Under the pieces are notes generated by a model, which saw only the letters and a program-made list of their open reading frames with translations, searched no databases and was not told where the DNA came from. Of a stretch of 64,000 nucleotides of DNA, positions 3 through 5,425 are shown one piece after another. Origin of the DNA: an uncultured Clostridia bacterium (GTDB lineage Bacteria; Bacillota; Clostridia; TANB77; CAG-508); the NCBI GenBank assembly GCA_947627185.1, contig CANQVF010000006.1, positions 26,533-90,532 of the forward strand, given 5' to 3'. A program made the translations under genes and the position numbers. How positions within the stretch are numbered: the stretch's first letter is position 1; each line of letters begins with the position of its first letter.

Positions 3-2282
3 ACATGGTTTAATAAAAATTACACAAATAATAAAAATGATTTAATTGCTTATTTTTCAGCTGAATATGGTTTAGATGAGATAGTTCCAATTTATTCTGG
101 AGGACTAGGTATTTTGTCTGGTGATCATCTAAAATCAGCAAGTGATTTAGGATTACCATTTGTTGCAATAGGATTATTATATAAAAATGGTTATTTTCAT
201 CAAAGAATAAATTCACGTGGTGAACAATGTTCAGAATATTATAATATAGATTTATATAATCTACCTATTTTACCGGTTAAAGATAATATGGATGATGATA
301 TAATAATAGATATTCCATTAGATGGAAAAACTTTATATCTAAAATTATGGCAAATTAATGTTGGAAGAATAAAATTATACTTATTAGATTCAGATATTGA
401 ACAAAATGATGAAGATTTTAGAAATATAACTCTTCGCTTATATGGTGGAGATAAAGAAATGAGAATACGTCAAGAAATTGTTTTAGGTATGGCAGGAGTT
501 AAAGCTCTAAAAACATTAGAATATTCTCCAACAGTATATCATATGAATGAAGGACATTCTTCTTTCTTAATATTAGAACTTATTAAAAATATTATGGAAG
601 AAAAACAAGTATCTTTTGAAATAGCAAGAGAAATAGCTACAGTTCAAACTGTATTTACTACTCATACACCAGTTCCAGCTGGAAATGATATTTTTGATAT
701 AAGTTTAGTAGAAAGATATTTTAATGGCTTTTGGGATAAATTAGGAATAACAAAGGAAGAATTTTTAAAATTAGGTATGCCTGGAGAAGATTTAGAACCA
801 GGATTTAATATGGGAATTCTTGCTTTAAAAGTAGCAGGCAAGAAAAATGGTGTAAGTAAATTACATGGCGAAGTATCTAGAGAATTATTTAGCGATGTTT
901 GGCCAAATATTGCAGAAGATGAATCACCAATTACTTATATTACAAATGGTATTCATACATGTACATGGCTTGCTCCAAACATTAAAGAATTATATAACGA
1001 ATATTTACCACCATATTGGCAAGATAATATTCAATTTAATTCTACTTGGGAAAAAATAGATAATATACCTAATGAAAAATTATGGGCAGCACATATTGAA
1101 AGAAAAGAAAAATTAATTAAGTTAATTAAAGAAAATGTTACAGAAAGATATGTAAAAAGTGGTATAGGATATGATCAAATAGCAGAAATTGTAAATCAAC
1201 TAAATCCTAAGGCTCTTACAATTGGTTTTGCTAGAAGATTTGCTACTTACAAAAGAGCAACATTAATTTTTAAAGATATTGCTAGATTAACTCAAATATT
1301 AAATGATGAAAAAAGACCAGTTCAATTAGTATTCGCAGGAAAAGCACATCCAGCTGATAAAGAAGGACAAGATTTAATAAAATATATACATGAAATTTCT
1401 TTAATGCCACAATTTAAAGGAAAGATCTTTATTTTAGAAAACTATAACATAGGTATTTCTAGATATTTAGTAAGTGGAGTAGATGTTTGGCTTAATAATC
1501 CTAGAAGACCTATGGAAGCATCAGGTACTTCAGGAGAAAAAGCTTCTGTAAATGGAGTTGTAAATTTTAGTGTTTTAGATGGTTGGTGGTGTGAAGGTTA
1601 TACAGGCACAAACGGATGGACTATTGGAACAAATGCTAGATATGATTCTTATGAAGAACAAGATAAAGCAGATAGTAATAGTTTATATCATACTTTAGAA
1701 AATAGAATTATACCAACTTATTATAATCAAGATAAAGATGGTATTCCAAAAGATTGGATTTCATATATGAAAAATTCTATAAAAACTACTGGTGGAAAAT
1801 ACAGTACAGCTAGAATGGTTTCAGAATATGTAGATGAATTGTATATACCTTTATGCAATTTAAGAAAAGCATATTTTGAAGACCTATCAAATGTAATTGA
1901 ATTTGCAAAATGGAAGAAAAATGTAAAACAAAATTGGGATAAAATAGAACTTGTTCAAGACAGAAATGTTGATAATGCTAAATTAGTAGCAGGAACACAA
2001 ATAACTGTAAATTGTAAAGTTTATTTACCTAATATAGATGAGTCTAATGCAGATGTTCAAGTATATTTTGGACAATTTTTAGAAAATGGAACTGTTAGAA
2101 ATGTTTATACTGAAACAATGAACAAAATTGAAGAAAATAAAGAAGAAAATACTTGCACATATGAAGCAGTATTAGAATTAAAAACAGGTGGAAATTATGG
2201 TTATACTTTTAGAGTTATGCCAAAACACCCAATGTTAGTAGATTCAGAAAATTTAAATCTAGTTAAATGGATAACAAAATAA
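3..2282 (+). CDS. glgP: Alpha-glucan (glycogen) phosphorylase, 5'-truncated by window edge
   Basis: Phosphorolysis of alpha-1,4-glucans to glucose-1-phosphate in the cytoplasm, as part of glycogen or maltodextrin turnover. The frame is open to base 3 and reads AYFSAEYGLDE then SGGLGILSGDH, a typical phosphorylase N-terminal region, so the TTG at 114 used by the ORF track is internal and the true start lies left of the window. The PLP-binding segment EASGTSGEKASVNG (near base 1515-1560) is intact, followed by the FSVLDGWWCEG stretch of the bacterial maltodextrin-phosphorylase subfamily. About 760 codons are visible against roughly 820-860 for the family. A strong terminator follows, so it ends its operon. 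Confidence 0.92.
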   Translation, partial: TWFNKNYTNNKNDLIAYFSAEYGLDEIVPIYSGGLGILSGDHLKSASDLGLPFVAIGLLYKNGYFHQRINSRGEQCSEYYNIDLYNLPILPVKDNMDDDIIIDIPLDGKTLYLKLWQINVGRIKLYLLDSDIEQNDEDFRNITLRLYGGDKEMRIRQEIVLGMAGVKALKTLEYSPTVYHMNEGHSSFLILELIKNIMEEKQVSFEIAREIATVQTVFTTHTPVPAGNDIFDISLVERYFNGFWDKLGITKEEFLKLGMPGEDLEPGFNMGILALKVAGKKNGVSKLHGEVSRELFSDVWPNIAEDESPITYITNGIHTCTWLAPNIKELYNEYLPPYWQDNIQFNSTWEKIDNIPNEKLWAAHIERKEKLIKLIKENVTERYVKSGIGYDQIAEIVNQLNPKALTIGFARRFATYKRATLIFKDIARLTQILNDEKRPVQLVFAGKAHPADKEGQDLIKYIHEISLMPQFKGKIFILENYNIGISRYLVSGVDVWLNNPRRPMEASGTSGEKASVNGVVNFSVLDGWWCEGYTGTNGWTIGTNARYDSYEEQDKADSNSLYHTLENRIIPTYYNQDKDGIPKDWISYMKNSIKTTGGKYSTARMVSEYVDELYIPLCNLRKAYFEDLSNVIEFAKWKKNVKQNWDKIELVQDRNVDNAKLVAGTQITVNCKVYLPNIDESNADVQVYFGQFLENGTVRNVYTETMNKIEENKEENTCTYEAVLELKTGGNYGYTFRVMPKHPMLVDSENLNLVKWITK

Positions 2283-2286
2283 AGTT

Positions 2287-2325
2287 AAAAATAGAGTATA
2301 TTTTCTAATATACTCTATTTTTTTT
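2287..2325 (+). terminator. Rho-independent terminator after glgP
   Basis: Nearly perfect 16-bp stem built around atagagtata / tatactctat with the 4-nt loop TTCT, followed directly by a run of T. It separates glgP from the small-protein cluster. Confidence 0.9.
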
Positions 2326-2355
2326 ATAAAATTTAAAAAAAATATAAAAAAATAC

Positions 2356-2384
2356 TTTACAAATAAAAAATATCGTGCTATAAT
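2356..2384 (+). promoter_or_regulatory. Sigma-A promoter of the structured leader / TasA-like cluster
   Basis: TTTACA, 17-bp spacer, TATAAT, preceded by TGC (extended -10). The predicted start of transcription (about 2391) falls on the first base of the long leader stem described next. Confidence 0.85.
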
Positions 2385-2390
2385 CTCACC

Positions 2391-2690
2391 CAAGTTAAAT
2401 ATTTTTAACTACATTTATATCTAAATAAATACTATTCTAGTATTTATGTTTTCCAGATTATTAAAATTAAATATATTAAAATTAAAATTTTTGTTATGCC
2501 CCAAATCAATCATTTTTAATAGATTTATTTCTATTAACTTATTTCTATGCTTTGAACTTACTTAAATTTTTAAGTAAAATCCAAATTCAGAGATAGTATT
2601 ATTTAATTTAAATTCAGAAAATAATTGTTTATTTTTGCCCCTAAATAATTATAAATAAGATTTGTAGTTTAAAAATATTTAACTTTAATT
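2391..2690 (+). promoter_or_regulatory. Candidate structured leader RNA (about 295 nt) closed by a 22-bp terminal stem
   Basis: Gene-free stretch between the glgP terminator and the SD at 2698. Bases 2392-2413 (aagttaaatattttt...) are complementary to 2663-2685 over 22 bp with one bulged T. Inside are further hairpins: a 10-bp stem 2425-2434/2438-2447 (loop TTC), a 6-bp stem 2518-2523/2530-2535, and a 9-bp stem 2558-2566/2569-2577. Two TGCCCC motifs (near 2497 and 2636) stand out in otherwise AT-only sequence, as do two copies of aaattcaga. The terminal stem starts at the predicted +1 and ends about 14 nt before the SD. I do not recognise a known riboswitch or ncRNA class. AT-rich DNA makes short hairpins common, but the 22-bp closure is unlikely by chance. 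Confidence 0.6.
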
Positions 2691-2710
2691 TAAAAAAAGG
2701 AGGTTAAAAA

Positions 2711-3268
2711 ATAAAAAGAATTATTGGAATTTTATTTTGTATAACTGTAATTATTATATCTTTTTCCACAGGTTATATATTTGAAAAATCATATAAATCA
2801 AATAAAAAATTAATAACTAATGTTGCTAAATGGTCTTTTAATTCTAATAATACAGAACAAATAATTAATTTATCTCAAGAAAAAATATTGCCAGGGTCAA
2901 AAGGAAATTTTAAAATAGAAATAGATGCAACTGGCTCTGAAAGTGAAATAAATTATCAAATAATTGTATTAGAAGAAAAAAATATTCCAAAAAATTTTGA
3001 ATTTTATGCAGAAATTTATAATGAAAAAAATGAAATGATTGAAAAAACAGATAAATATGAAAATCTTTCTAATTTAGCTAAAGAAAAACTTTTTGGAAAT
3101 ATAAGCTTAGAGAAAAATAATCAAAAAAGAAATATAATTATTTATTGGAATTGGAAAGATGAGCAAAATGATATTTTTTTGGAAATGAAAGATGGAACCA
3201 TTTCCTTAAATGAAAATTCATCTTTAGAAAGTGGTTTTTGTATTGAAATTATAGGTAAACAAATTTAA
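2711..3268 (+). CDS. TasA/camelysin-like small secreted protein, apparent AUA start
   Basis: The ORF track starts at a TTG (2888), but the frame is open back to 2708, just after an in-frame TAA. It begins ATA AAA AGA seven bases after an excellent SD (aaaggagg). From ATA the protein is ~185 aa: KR followed by a hydrophobic helix IIGILFCITVIIIS (signal/anchor), then NVAKWSFN, and later LPGSKGNFKIEIDATGSE, a pattern I associate with TasA/camelysin-family spore-coat/biofilm fibre proteins. No other in-frame ATG/GTG/TTG would keep the signal peptide. Either AUA really initiates or an ATG was mutated. Assignment is by motif resemblance only. First of four small envelope genes. Confidence 0.62.
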   Translation: MKRIIGILFCITVIIISFSTGYIFEKSYKSNKKLITNVAKWSFNSNNTEQIINLSQEKILPGSKGNFKIEIDATGSESEINYQIIVLEEKNIPKNFEFYAEIYNEKNEMIEKTDKYENLSNLAKEKLFGNISLEKNNQKRNIIIYWNWKDEQNDIFLEMKDGTISLNENSSLESGFCIEIIGKQI

Positions 3269-3365
3269 TTCTAATAATAATACAAATGATAATTAATTAC
3301 CTTTTTATAAAAATAAATTTTAAATTATAAATTCATAATTAAAATCTTATAAACTTTATGTATTA

Positions 3366-3442
3366 AAGGTGGCATGTAGCCACATGCCACTTAAAATTTT
3401 CTATTAAGAGTATAAAGATGTATTTTTAATAGAGAATTTTAA
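3366..3442 (+). promoter_or_regulatory. Tandem hairpins upstream of the second TasA-like gene
   Basis: A 9-bp GC-containing hairpin, gtggcatgt / acatgccac with loop AGCC (3369-3390), is followed immediately by a second stem of 16-17 bp, taaaattttctattaa (3392-3407) with ttaatagagaatttta (3426-3441), containing one G-U pair. Neither is followed by a T-run, so they are not classical terminators. They lie 30-100 nt before the start codon at 3475 and may be a processing, stabilising or regulatory element. Confidence 0.6.
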
Positions 3443-3474
3443 GAAATTATATAAAGTATTTATATGGAGAGAAA

Positions 3475-3960
3475 ATGAAAAACATAAAGAAAAAAGTTTT
3501 AATTTTATTGGTTATATTTACTTTAACAATACTACCAATAAATTCTATAGCAAAATATTATGAGGAAATTAAAAATATTAAATTATATTTTTATTTAGCT
3601 AAACCTATTTTAAAAATTGAAAAATCCCAAAATACAATTATAAAAGAAATATCAAGAAAGAGTGAAATAGAAAATTTTTATTTTACAATAAAAAATTATG
3701 AATTAATAAATAATGAGAAAGTAATTTCTGAAGTTCCATTTTTTATTGATTTAGAACTTAATAATTCAAATAAAAATTTTCCAATAGAATATAAAATTTA
3801 TGATTGTGATACTGGAAATGAAATAAAAAATAAAATTTTTGTTGATAAGAATATTGAATTCGAAAAAAGATTAAAAATTATTGCTGTTTGGAATAAAAAT
3901 CCCCCAAATAGTGAGTATAATGAAACTAATATAATTTTTAATGTAGAGCAAGCAATATAA
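3475..3960 (+). CDS. Small secreted protein, possibly TasA-like
   Basis: 161 aa with a clear Sec-type signal: KKKVLILLVIFTLTILPIN then SIAKYY. The mature part is a lysine- and asparagine-rich, beta-prone domain with no recognised catalytic motif. The layout (signal peptide, ~140-residue beta domain) and the place beside a TasA-like gene suggest a surface or matrix protein, but sequence resemblance is weak. SD is ggagag, 5-6 nt before ATG. Preceded by the tandem hairpins. Function unknown. Confidence 0.6.
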   Translation: MKNIKKKVLILLVIFTLTILPINSIAKYYEEIKNIKLYFYLAKPILKIEKSQNTIIKEISRKSEIENFYFTIKNYELINNEKVISEVPFFIDLELNNSNKNFPIEYKIYDCDTGNEIKNKIFVDKNIEFEKRLKIIAVWNKNPPNSEYNETNIIFNVEQAI

Positions 3961-4006
3961 AATTTTATAAGAATAAATTGAATTAAAATTTAGAAAAGAG
4001 AAAAAT

Positions 4007-4222
4007 ATGAAAAGTATATATTATCAATTATCTTTTAGAATATTAATTGTAATTATTTTTTTAATAATGATTATTATAACTACCTTTAATATAGGAAAAA
4101 AATTTTATTATATTAAAAATACATTACAAAATAGCGAAAAAATTTATTACAAAACAGAAATTGCAAAATGGAATTTTAATGTAAAAATTTCAGTAGAAGA
4201 AGAGGTATTTAATTATGAGTAA
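4007..4222 (+). CDS. Short membrane protein with AKWNFN motif (stub of TasA-like protein?)
   Basis: 71 aa. One transmembrane helix (ILIVIIFLIMIIITTFNI), then a linker ending EIAKWNFNVKIS, the same motif as NVAKWSFN in the 2711 protein. The protein stops about 15 residues after the motif where its relative continues for another ~140. It is therefore either a naturally tiny membrane protein or the N-terminal remnant of a truncated TasA-like gene. Weak SD (agaaaagag). Its stop codon overlaps the ATG of the next gene (translational coupling). Confidence 0.5.
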   Translation: MKSIYYQLSFRILIVIIFLIMIIITTFNIGKKFYYIKNTLQNSEKIYYKTEIAKWNFNVKISVEEEVFNYE

Positions 4223-4424
4223 AAGAATTTATATAATAATATTTATTGTTATATATTTATTTATAATATTGCAAACAGAGGTTTATGGTATTTATAAAAT
4301 GTCATACAAAATATTAGCATATAAGATAAAAATTAAACAAGAAGAAATACAAGAAGTACAATTAGAAGAAATACAAGAAAATGAAGAAAATACTGATGGT
4401 TTTATAGTAGAAATTCATAAATAG
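4215..4424 (+). CDS. Small membrane protein with acidic Gln/Glu-rich tail
   Basis: 69 aa. N-terminal hydrophobic helix (IYIIIFIVIYLFIILQ), a short Tyr/Lys region, then a charged tail with the repeat EEIQEVQLEEIQE. ATG lies within the end of the preceding gene (8-nt overlap), which argues that it is really translated by coupling. No family recognised. The four genes 2711-4424 look like one transcription unit of envelope-associated small proteins. Confidence 0.45.
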   Translation: MSKRIYIIIFIVIYLFIILQTEVYGIYKMSYKILAYKIKIKQEEIQEVQLEEIQENEENTDGFIVEIHK

Positions 4425-4455
4425 CAAATATTACACATATTTAAATTATTTTGGC

Positions 4456-4484
4456 TTGTGAAAAAAATTTATAAATGGTATAAT
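4456..4484 (+). promoter_or_regulatory. Sigma-A promoter of the ATPase-cmk-plsC operon
   Basis: TTGTGA, 17-bp spacer, TATAAT with TGG before the -10 (extended -10). It sits in the 140-bp gap before the ATPase gene. Confidence 0.75.
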
Positions 4485-4514
4485 ATATAATATTTTAAAA
4501 TAATTATCATTTAA

Positions 4515-4567
4515 GAAAGGAGTGTATGATTATTTAATTTTTTTAAATATCATACAGAAAATAAATG
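4515..4567 (+). promoter_or_regulatory. Shine-Dalgarno separated from start codon by a hairpin (ATPase gene)
   Basis: SD aaaggag (4516-4522) lies 42 nt before the ATG at 4565. Between them gtatgat (4524-4530) pairs with atcatac (4549-4555). Folding this hairpin brings the SD to about 10 nt from the ATG. A mini-ORF ATG ATT ATT TAA (4526-4537) sits inside the stem/loop but is too close to the SD for good initiation. Confidence 0.5.
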
Positions 4568-5425
4568 TTATTTTCACAGCACAAAATGAAAACATATGCA
4601 TTTGTTGGACCTTCTGGTACTGGTAAAAGTTATAGAGCGCAGATGGTAGCAAATGAAAGAGGAATAAATTATATTATTGATGATGGATTATTAATATCTG
4701 GTAATGAAATATTAGCTGGAATTTCTGCTAAGAAAGCACCTACAAAGATAGAAACTGTTAGAAATGCATTATTCCAAAGTGAAGAACGAAAAAAAGAAAT
4801 TCAAGATGTAATAAAAAAAAGAAAACCAGATAGCATTTTAATATTAGGAACTTCTGATGAAATGGTAAAAAAAATTGTGGAAAATTTAGGATTTGAACCA
4901 ATTACAGAGACAATATATATAACAGATGTTGCAACAGAAGAAGAAATGGCAATGGCAAGGGATATAAGGGTACATCAAGGAAAACATGTTATACCTGTTC
5001 CTACTTTTGCATTAAAAAAAGATTTTTCTGGATATTTATTAGATCCACTTCAAATTTTTAAATCAAAAGGAAAAGGAAAGGCACCATATATTTCTGAAAA
5101 ATCTATTATAAGACCAACTTTTAGTTATATGGGAAATTTTAAAATTTCAGATACAGTTTTTAAACAAATTATTGATTGTGTAGTAGAAAAAAGTGAAAGT
5201 GTTCATAAAATTCATAGGGCTATTATAAAAAAACACGAAGAATTAAATGATGGTATATATATTTATATAGAAGTAATTATTAATTATGGTTACAATGTTA
5301 ATGAAACAATGCAAATTTTAAAACAAAAAATTATTAAGGAAATAGAAAAAATGACTTCTATGAATGTACTTGGTATGGAAATTGTAGTTAAAGGTGTAAA
5401 TTTAAATGAAAATATAAATAAATAA
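4565..5425 (+). CDS. P-loop ATPase with C-terminal Asp23/YloU-like domain
   Basis: 286 aa. Walker A GPSGTGKS at residues 15-22, and a middle part containing DSILILGTSDEM that resembles a nucleotide-binding fold. The last ~100 residues (from about FKISDTVFKQIIDCVV to MEIVVKGVNL) match the pattern of the Asp23/Gls24/YloU family. This is a fusion of an ATP-binding domain with an envelope-stress-type Asp23 module, probably cytoplasmic or membrane-associated. An alternative start is M8. Neither ATG has a close SD (see the SD-hairpin entry). It precedes cmk and plsC in one operon, suggesting a housekeeping or lipid-related role. Exact function unknown. Confidence 0.7.
   Translation: MLFSQHKMKTYAFVGPSGTGKSYRAQMVANERGINYIIDDGLLISGNEILAGISAKKAPTKIETVRNALFQSEERKKEIQDVIKKRKPDSILILGTSDEMVKKIVENLGFEPITETIYITDVATEEEMAMARDIRVHQGKHVIPVPTFALKKDFSGYLLDPLQIFKSKGKGKAPYISEKSIIRPTFSYMGNFKISDTVFKQIIDCVVEKSESVHKIHRAIIKKHEELNDGIYIYIEVIINYGYNVNETMQILKQKIIKEIEKMTSMNVLGMEIVVKGVNLNENINK

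Follow-up and report, generated by a model that had tools for sequence, protein, structure and literature searches.

Organization of the locus

The window analysed here, a 64,000-nt stretch of DNA from an uncultured Clostridia bacterium, carries a promoter, a leader of about 295 nt and, behind it, a gene for a TasA-like exported protein; the parts of this unit lie on the + strand. The promoter (2356-2384) can be read directly from the sequence and consists of TTTACA (2356-2361), a 17-nt spacer and an extended -10 element, TGCTATAAT, with TG at 2376-2377 and TATAAT at 2379-2384. In total, 29 promoter-like sites occur in the region 2200-4600, a count that is not above chance expectation. Among them the site at 2356-2384 scores highest (11 of 12 matches), and the extended -10 promoter proposed in the original prediction is present, no other site of the region resembling a sigma-70 promoter as closely. 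The leader itself is delimited by two complementary segments, AAGTTAAATATTTTTAACTAC (2392-2412) and GTAGTTTAAAAATATTTAACTT (2664-2685), which form the closing stem P1. Both arms are defined by fold and covariation, the 5' arm additionally by its distance from the -10 box; its first base(s) represent the predicted +1. The 22-bp terminal stem with one bulged base that had been claimed at this place also appears in the minimum free energy (MFE) fold. The Shine-Dalgarno sequence (SD) AAGGAGG (2697-2703) follows, its GGAGG (2699-2703) lying 13 nt after P1 compared with the roughly 14 nt originally estimated.

The gene at 2711-3268 encodes 185 amino acids and is read from a non-canonical AUA start. 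No Pfam or NCBIfam family, TasA and camelysin included, matches its product. Foldseek searches with an AlphaFold2 model (pLDDT 78) returned TasA structures among the top PDB matches, aligned over nearly the full length (5of2, E = 1.6e-4; 5of1, E = 4.3e-4), with TM-scores of only 0.38-0.44 that CUB domains reach equally. Hence, designation of the predicted fold as TasA-like has moderate support. Start codons of the 41 readable tasA genes, chosen by their spacing to the SD, are ATG in 22 cases, TTG in eight, GTG in two and AUA or AUU in nine, the latter group being spread over at least three clades and including the ATA of the window (2711-2713). In Staphylococcus aureus, AUA and AUU starts need extended SDs and yield about a tenth of the AUG output (PMC13009471). 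The combination of a strong SD and a weak start would fit a gene with tuned initiation.

In most relatives, the second gene of the operon encodes a SipW-like signal peptidase, as judged by its motifs, whereas the window has another small exported protein at this place and no SipW-like peptidase was seen in its operon. Genes 2 to 4 (3475-4424) all code for small exported proteins, none of which matches a known family. Downstream of the TasA-like gene, the intergenic region (3269-3474) contains two strong hairpins in succession (z = -7.5), and the tasA-sipW intergenic region of relatives comprises three segments, the central one being able to pair with the segment on either side (GCAGAGAG/CTCTCTGCTAAG/CTTAGTAGAAAGCT), an attenuator-like arrangement. 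Between the leader and the tasA-like gene no terminator was found, the sole terminator-like site in 2200-4600 being located after tasA (3367-3392). An intrinsic-terminator attenuator or transcriptional riboswitch ahead of tasA was therefore rejected, as the required hairpin with U-tract is missing.

Conservation of the leader fold

The 300-nt leader folds with -53.4 kcal/mol, compared with -33.0 ± 4.0 kcal/mol for 200 dinucleotide shuffles, none of which equalled it (z = -5.1). Among relatives, leader length ranges from 155 to 329 nt and the sequence between the helices is free to vary, while P1 is maintained by compensatory exchange. In P1, 91.9% of 608 alignment cells are paired and 10 of the 16 pairs display two-sided changes. 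The covariation looked for in this stem is strong: there are 62 two-sided cells versus 20.9 in column shuffles, and every shift of the register reduces their number sharply. The shuffle controls ignore phylogeny; the slid-register control partly covers kinship, and the changes are spread over several distinct clades. When a P1 arm is matched with the partner arm of another species, the paired fraction outside the anchored positions drops to 0.84, compared with 0.99 for the true partners, a difference beyond 2000 out of 2000 shuffles. Examples of compensatory exchange are the replacement of AAAUAUUUUU/AAAAAUAUUU by AAAUGCCUUA/UAGGCAUUU in species G009 and by AAAUGAUUUU/AAAAUCAUUU in G032. With duplex energies of -13 to -27 kcal/mol in all 45 species and a first base that follows the -10 box after 6-7 nt in 44 of them, a stable stem beginning at the predicted +1 is found across the genus. 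Since this distance is fixed, the coincidence of +1 and first stem base, which the original prediction had pointed out for the window, is conserved and not due to chance. At the other end, P1 is separated from GGAGG by 10-24 nt in the 45 species. That promoter, P1 and SD keep this register speaks for a role of the 5' end as such.

Two explanations that do without a functional RNA can be measured against these data. With a G+C content of only about 20%, the leader belongs to the kind of AT-rich intergenic DNA in which short repeats arise easily, and its folding could in principle be accidental. This is refuted by the z-score, by the covariation in P1, P2 and the C-rich hairpins described below and by the promoter register, which together leave chance folding a practically negligible probability. 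Alternatively, the two P1 arms might act at the DNA level as quasi-palindromic operators (GTTAAA-N4-TTTAAC) of one regulator, their mutual complementarity being a by-product; both arms are in fact near-palindromes in the clade of the window. Single arms, however, fold weakly and inconsistently: in G003, G023, G035, G030 and others the self-fold of an arm amounts to -0.9 to 0 kcal/mol, while arm-to-arm pairing still reaches -17 to -27 kcal/mol. Moreover, G-U wobbles are used on the + strand only, which fixes the transcribed strand. The operator reading is thereby largely refuted and must be regarded as very improbable.

A search of Rfam 15 with the window and 16 relatives gave no family match, either at the gathering score or at relaxed E-values of up to 1-10, in line with the original statement that no known RNA class is recognizable. 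Likewise, no published description of such a leader was found in the open-access literature. DNA matches elsewhere in the same genome are rare, short and AT-rich. Together with the P1 covariation, the lack of an Rfam match supports the proposed new structured leader RNA, and on comparative sequence grounds it is hardly in doubt that a structured conserved RNA is present. The leader would thus represent a previously unlisted orphan family of folded RNA at the start of a tasA-like mRNA, near certain as far as its structure is concerned.

Internal elements

The internal hairpins predicted for the leader were all recovered, the main one (2426-2446) being P2. This element (2420-2456), recognized by covariation, comprises a stem (2426-2433/2439-2446) with the loop AUUCU, in which six of eight pairs show two-sided changes (25 two-sided cells versus 9.6 in shuffles), and flanks UCUAAA and UUUUCCA which are conserved beyond base pairing. 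P4 (2550-2591), identified by RNAalifold in 13 long-form relatives, consists of an outer UUUGAA/UUCAGA pairing around UUACUUAA/UUAAGUAA and a 3' internal loop, AAUCCAAA; with its 3' AUCCAAA loop it occurs only in the long-form clade to which the window belongs.

Both TGCCCC motifs noticed in the window are also in place (2497-2502 and 2636-2641), and in the RNA they belong to C-rich loops. The first region (2486-2512, with UGCCCC at 2497-2502) presents its C-run in a hairpin loop in the 31 species having at least two C-runs and is defined by covarying flanks (0 of 5000 shuffles), its hairpin being weak in the window (-0.4 kcal/mol). The second C-rich hairpin, P5 (2620-2652, with UGCCCC 2636-2641 in the loop), was derived from RNAalifold and flank covariation; a hairpin around the last C-run is found in 44 of 45 species, again with covarying flanks (0 of 5000 shuffles). 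Swapping the flanks of C-run hairpins between species destroys the hairpins, an effect equalled in 0 of 5000 shuffles. Ensemble folding predicts the C-runs to be 88% unpaired. In an RNA with hardly any G outside the SD, such C-rich loops argue for pairing with a G-rich partner. From low-GC bacteria, C-rich (UCCC) loops are known to bind SDs (PMC4132741), and the icaR mRNA contains a UCCCCUG motif that base-pairs with its own SD (PMC3868564). In the duplex-energy test, co-evolution of C-loop and SD compared with cross-species shuffles (9 of 2000, without phylogenetic correction) is at most suggestive and confounded by clade, C-run length tracks the G-runs of the SD loosely, and in the window the fit is weak because CCCC against GGAGG gives an A·C mismatch. 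The SD itself, which an SD-sequestering thermometer or translational switch would keep paired in the ground state, has a mean unpaired probability of 0.51 with wide spread between species, as calculated from nested folds.

These elements could also be read as a ligand-sensing riboswitch or protein-responsive switch, in which P1 closes an aptamer-like domain and a pseudoknot between a C-loop and the SD outside P1 gates translation. The closed-domain layout with P1 adjoining the SD, the loose relation between C-runs and SD G-runs, and the P2 flanks conserved beyond pairing would all agree with such a device. On the other hand, neither an alternative helix nor a terminator switch is visible, an interior of 155 to 329 nt is unusual for a small-molecule pocket, and the gene product is an extracellular structural protein instead of a metabolic enzyme or transporter, so that a switch of this type appears quite unlikely.

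Distribution, and retention of the leader after loss of tasA

Of 35 same-genus genomes searched at the DNA and protein level, about 30 contain the leader along with the next gene. R1, a covariance model of promoter and 5' domain, matches 46 of 53 genus genomes, once each except for two that carry an additional short copy; the full P1-closed leader is present in 45 of these 46, as a single copy, G070 having the short form only. In 145 other genomes sampled from the order, R1 gave no match under strict filters, and DNA-pattern matches in other phyla (best model E = 0.009) were taken as chance rather than homologues. Public records with the leader are metagenome-assembled genomes labelled uncultured Clostridia, Clostridium or Eubacteriales, with isolate names pointing to rabbit, roe deer and sheep gut. 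Judged from this sampling, the leader appears confined to one genus of uncultured gut Clostridia and present in most of its species.

The short copies (L096 in G065, L099 in G071 and L105 in G070) share promoter and P2 with the full leader, lack P1 and the C-rich loops, and precede a paralogous small exported-protein gene or operon. Presence of P2 and the same promoter alone before such an operon suggests a shared trans factor, for which P2 might provide the docking site common to both operons. In a sister genus (g12), short leaders upstream of tasA-like genes (L177, L178 and L183) contain a UCUAWA...UUUCCAAAA pattern resembling P2; their score against the model is marginal (only 20.7 bits, E = 0.18), and kinship is not claimed.

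Within the genus, the leader travels with the tasA-like operon while the upstream gene varies between species, and the TasA-like gene is the next gene in 43 of 45 species. Control of the small-protein cluster by the leader, as originally supposed, would be consistent with this, since only two of the full-length leaders do not head a tasA-like operon. The exceptions, G023 and G061, lack both tasA and sipW; no TasA match was obtained in either, and the DNA from leader to next gene is contiguous without a matching open reading frame (ORF). Nevertheless, promoter, P1, P2, both C-rich hairpins and SD are retained, and compared with the genus both arms of P1 carry changes. Between the two species, the structured blocks, chosen post hoc, differ by 5.5% and the spacers by 25%, and much of the former difference stems from gap placement in one P1 arm that is intact in both. 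The leader is then followed by a terminator-like hairpin without an intervening gene, and a separate conserved promoter precedes the next gene. In the corresponding loci (L111 of G023 and L112 of G061, from about position 1030), a further conserved block, TTTATTTTTATCAAAGCCTAAATTACCTTAAGTTA, is located after the leader. Survival without its gene is the one really odd feature of this leader. Its retention in two species after tasA loss points to a regulatory job of its own, probably, and on the sequence evidence would speak against pure cis control of tasA and for a role beyond it.

The opposite case is provided by the seven genus genomes without an R1 match. Six of them are also devoid of any TasA match, and the seventh, G019, which is close to the species of the window (87% by its neighbouring protein), has only distant paralogues, leader and main tasA both being gone. 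In G010 (L063/L114) and G073 (L109), a frame-broken tasA stands behind an intact leader, which may be an assembly error.

These patterns bear on the question of whether the leader acts in trans, as a dual-function RNA like staphylococcal RNAIII or listerial LhrC: a stable P1-closed domain whose C-loops bind the SDs of other mRNAs, while the transcript also encodes TasA. Hairpin loops with C-runs, present in 44 of 45 species, are a hallmark of SD-binding small RNAs of low-GC bacteria (PMC4132741), and the elements retained in G023 and G061, together with their terminator-like hairpin and the separate promoter of the next gene, also count in favour of this reading. Elsewhere, however, the leader lies 10-24 nt before a strong SD and a gene without a terminator in between, and G019 lost leader and main tasA together. 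A trans-acting role is considered rather unlikely, and its genus-wide version, an RNAIII-like domain that in most species forms part of the 5' end of the tasA mRNA and became stand-alone after tasA/sipW loss, is unlikely, too.

Proposed function and comparison with known systems

The best explanation, to which we assign a probability of roughly 0.4, is an orphan structured 5' leader of the tasA-like operon in which the clamp would protect the 5' end and the C-rich loops would tune translation. That the leader acts mainly in cis on this operon is likely. In the proposed mechanism, the first base of P1 is also the first one transcribed, and the 5' end would consequently be locked in a helix of about 20 bp with bases just upstream of the SD; P1 would close the whole leader as one domain and leave the SD outside. 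A helix starting from +1 is a known block to 5'-dependent decay in Firmicutes. The clamp may accordingly shield the transcript from 5'-triphosphate removal and RNase J, giving a long-lived mRNA for an abundant extracellular protein, a stabilizing role that by analogy has close to an even chance of being correct. More tentatively, and likewise by analogy, the C-rich loops could serve as anti-SD elements, directed either at the tasA SD in cis or at another G-rich RNA in trans, and thereby tune initiation.

Several known systems share part of this design. According to work cited in a review (PMC3997798), 5' stem-loops stabilize leaders such as that of aprE. The aprE-type leaders of Bacillus, like ompA and papA in Escherichia coli, resemble the present one in having a stem at the very 5' end, a strong SD downstream and a highly expressed extracellular product. 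Theirs is a local 5' hairpin, though, whereas here a long-range stem closes a domain of 155-329 nt with conserved hairpins, and stability is predicted. RNAIII, RsaE and LhrC are likewise structured, mostly AU RNAs whose hairpin loops expose C-runs, and RNAIII is both mRNA and regulator; their structure and sequence differ, and the present leader has no terminator of its own in most species. In S. aureus icaR, C-rich motif and G-rich SD also lie on one transcript in a biofilm context, but the motif is situated in the 3'-UTR with perfect SD complementarity, compared with leader loops of partial complementarity here. The tapA-sipW-tasA operon of Bacillus shares the TasA-like exported protein and, in most relatives, the SipW-like peptidase gene; no report of such a leader was found for it, and the resemblance to TasA shows in the fold alone. 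The leader would connect RNA-level control with the TasA-like extracellular fibres of uncultured gut Clostridia, fibres on whose regulation seemingly nothing was known before, and the two species with gene lost and RNA kept constitute a natural test of whether leaders become, or are, independent regulators.

Finally, raiA/ModT and OLE RNAs are, like the present leader, large structured RNAs that are conserved in Clostridia and show no obvious switch; the leader differs in having no Rfam similarity, in being AT-rich and restricted to one genus, and in directly preceding an SD. An OLE RNA (L207, 206-818; 271 bits) was encountered in the leader-less relative G004, where it occupies the syntenic place ahead of the AAA/Asp23 gene and is followed by an ORF which we take to be its OapA partner.
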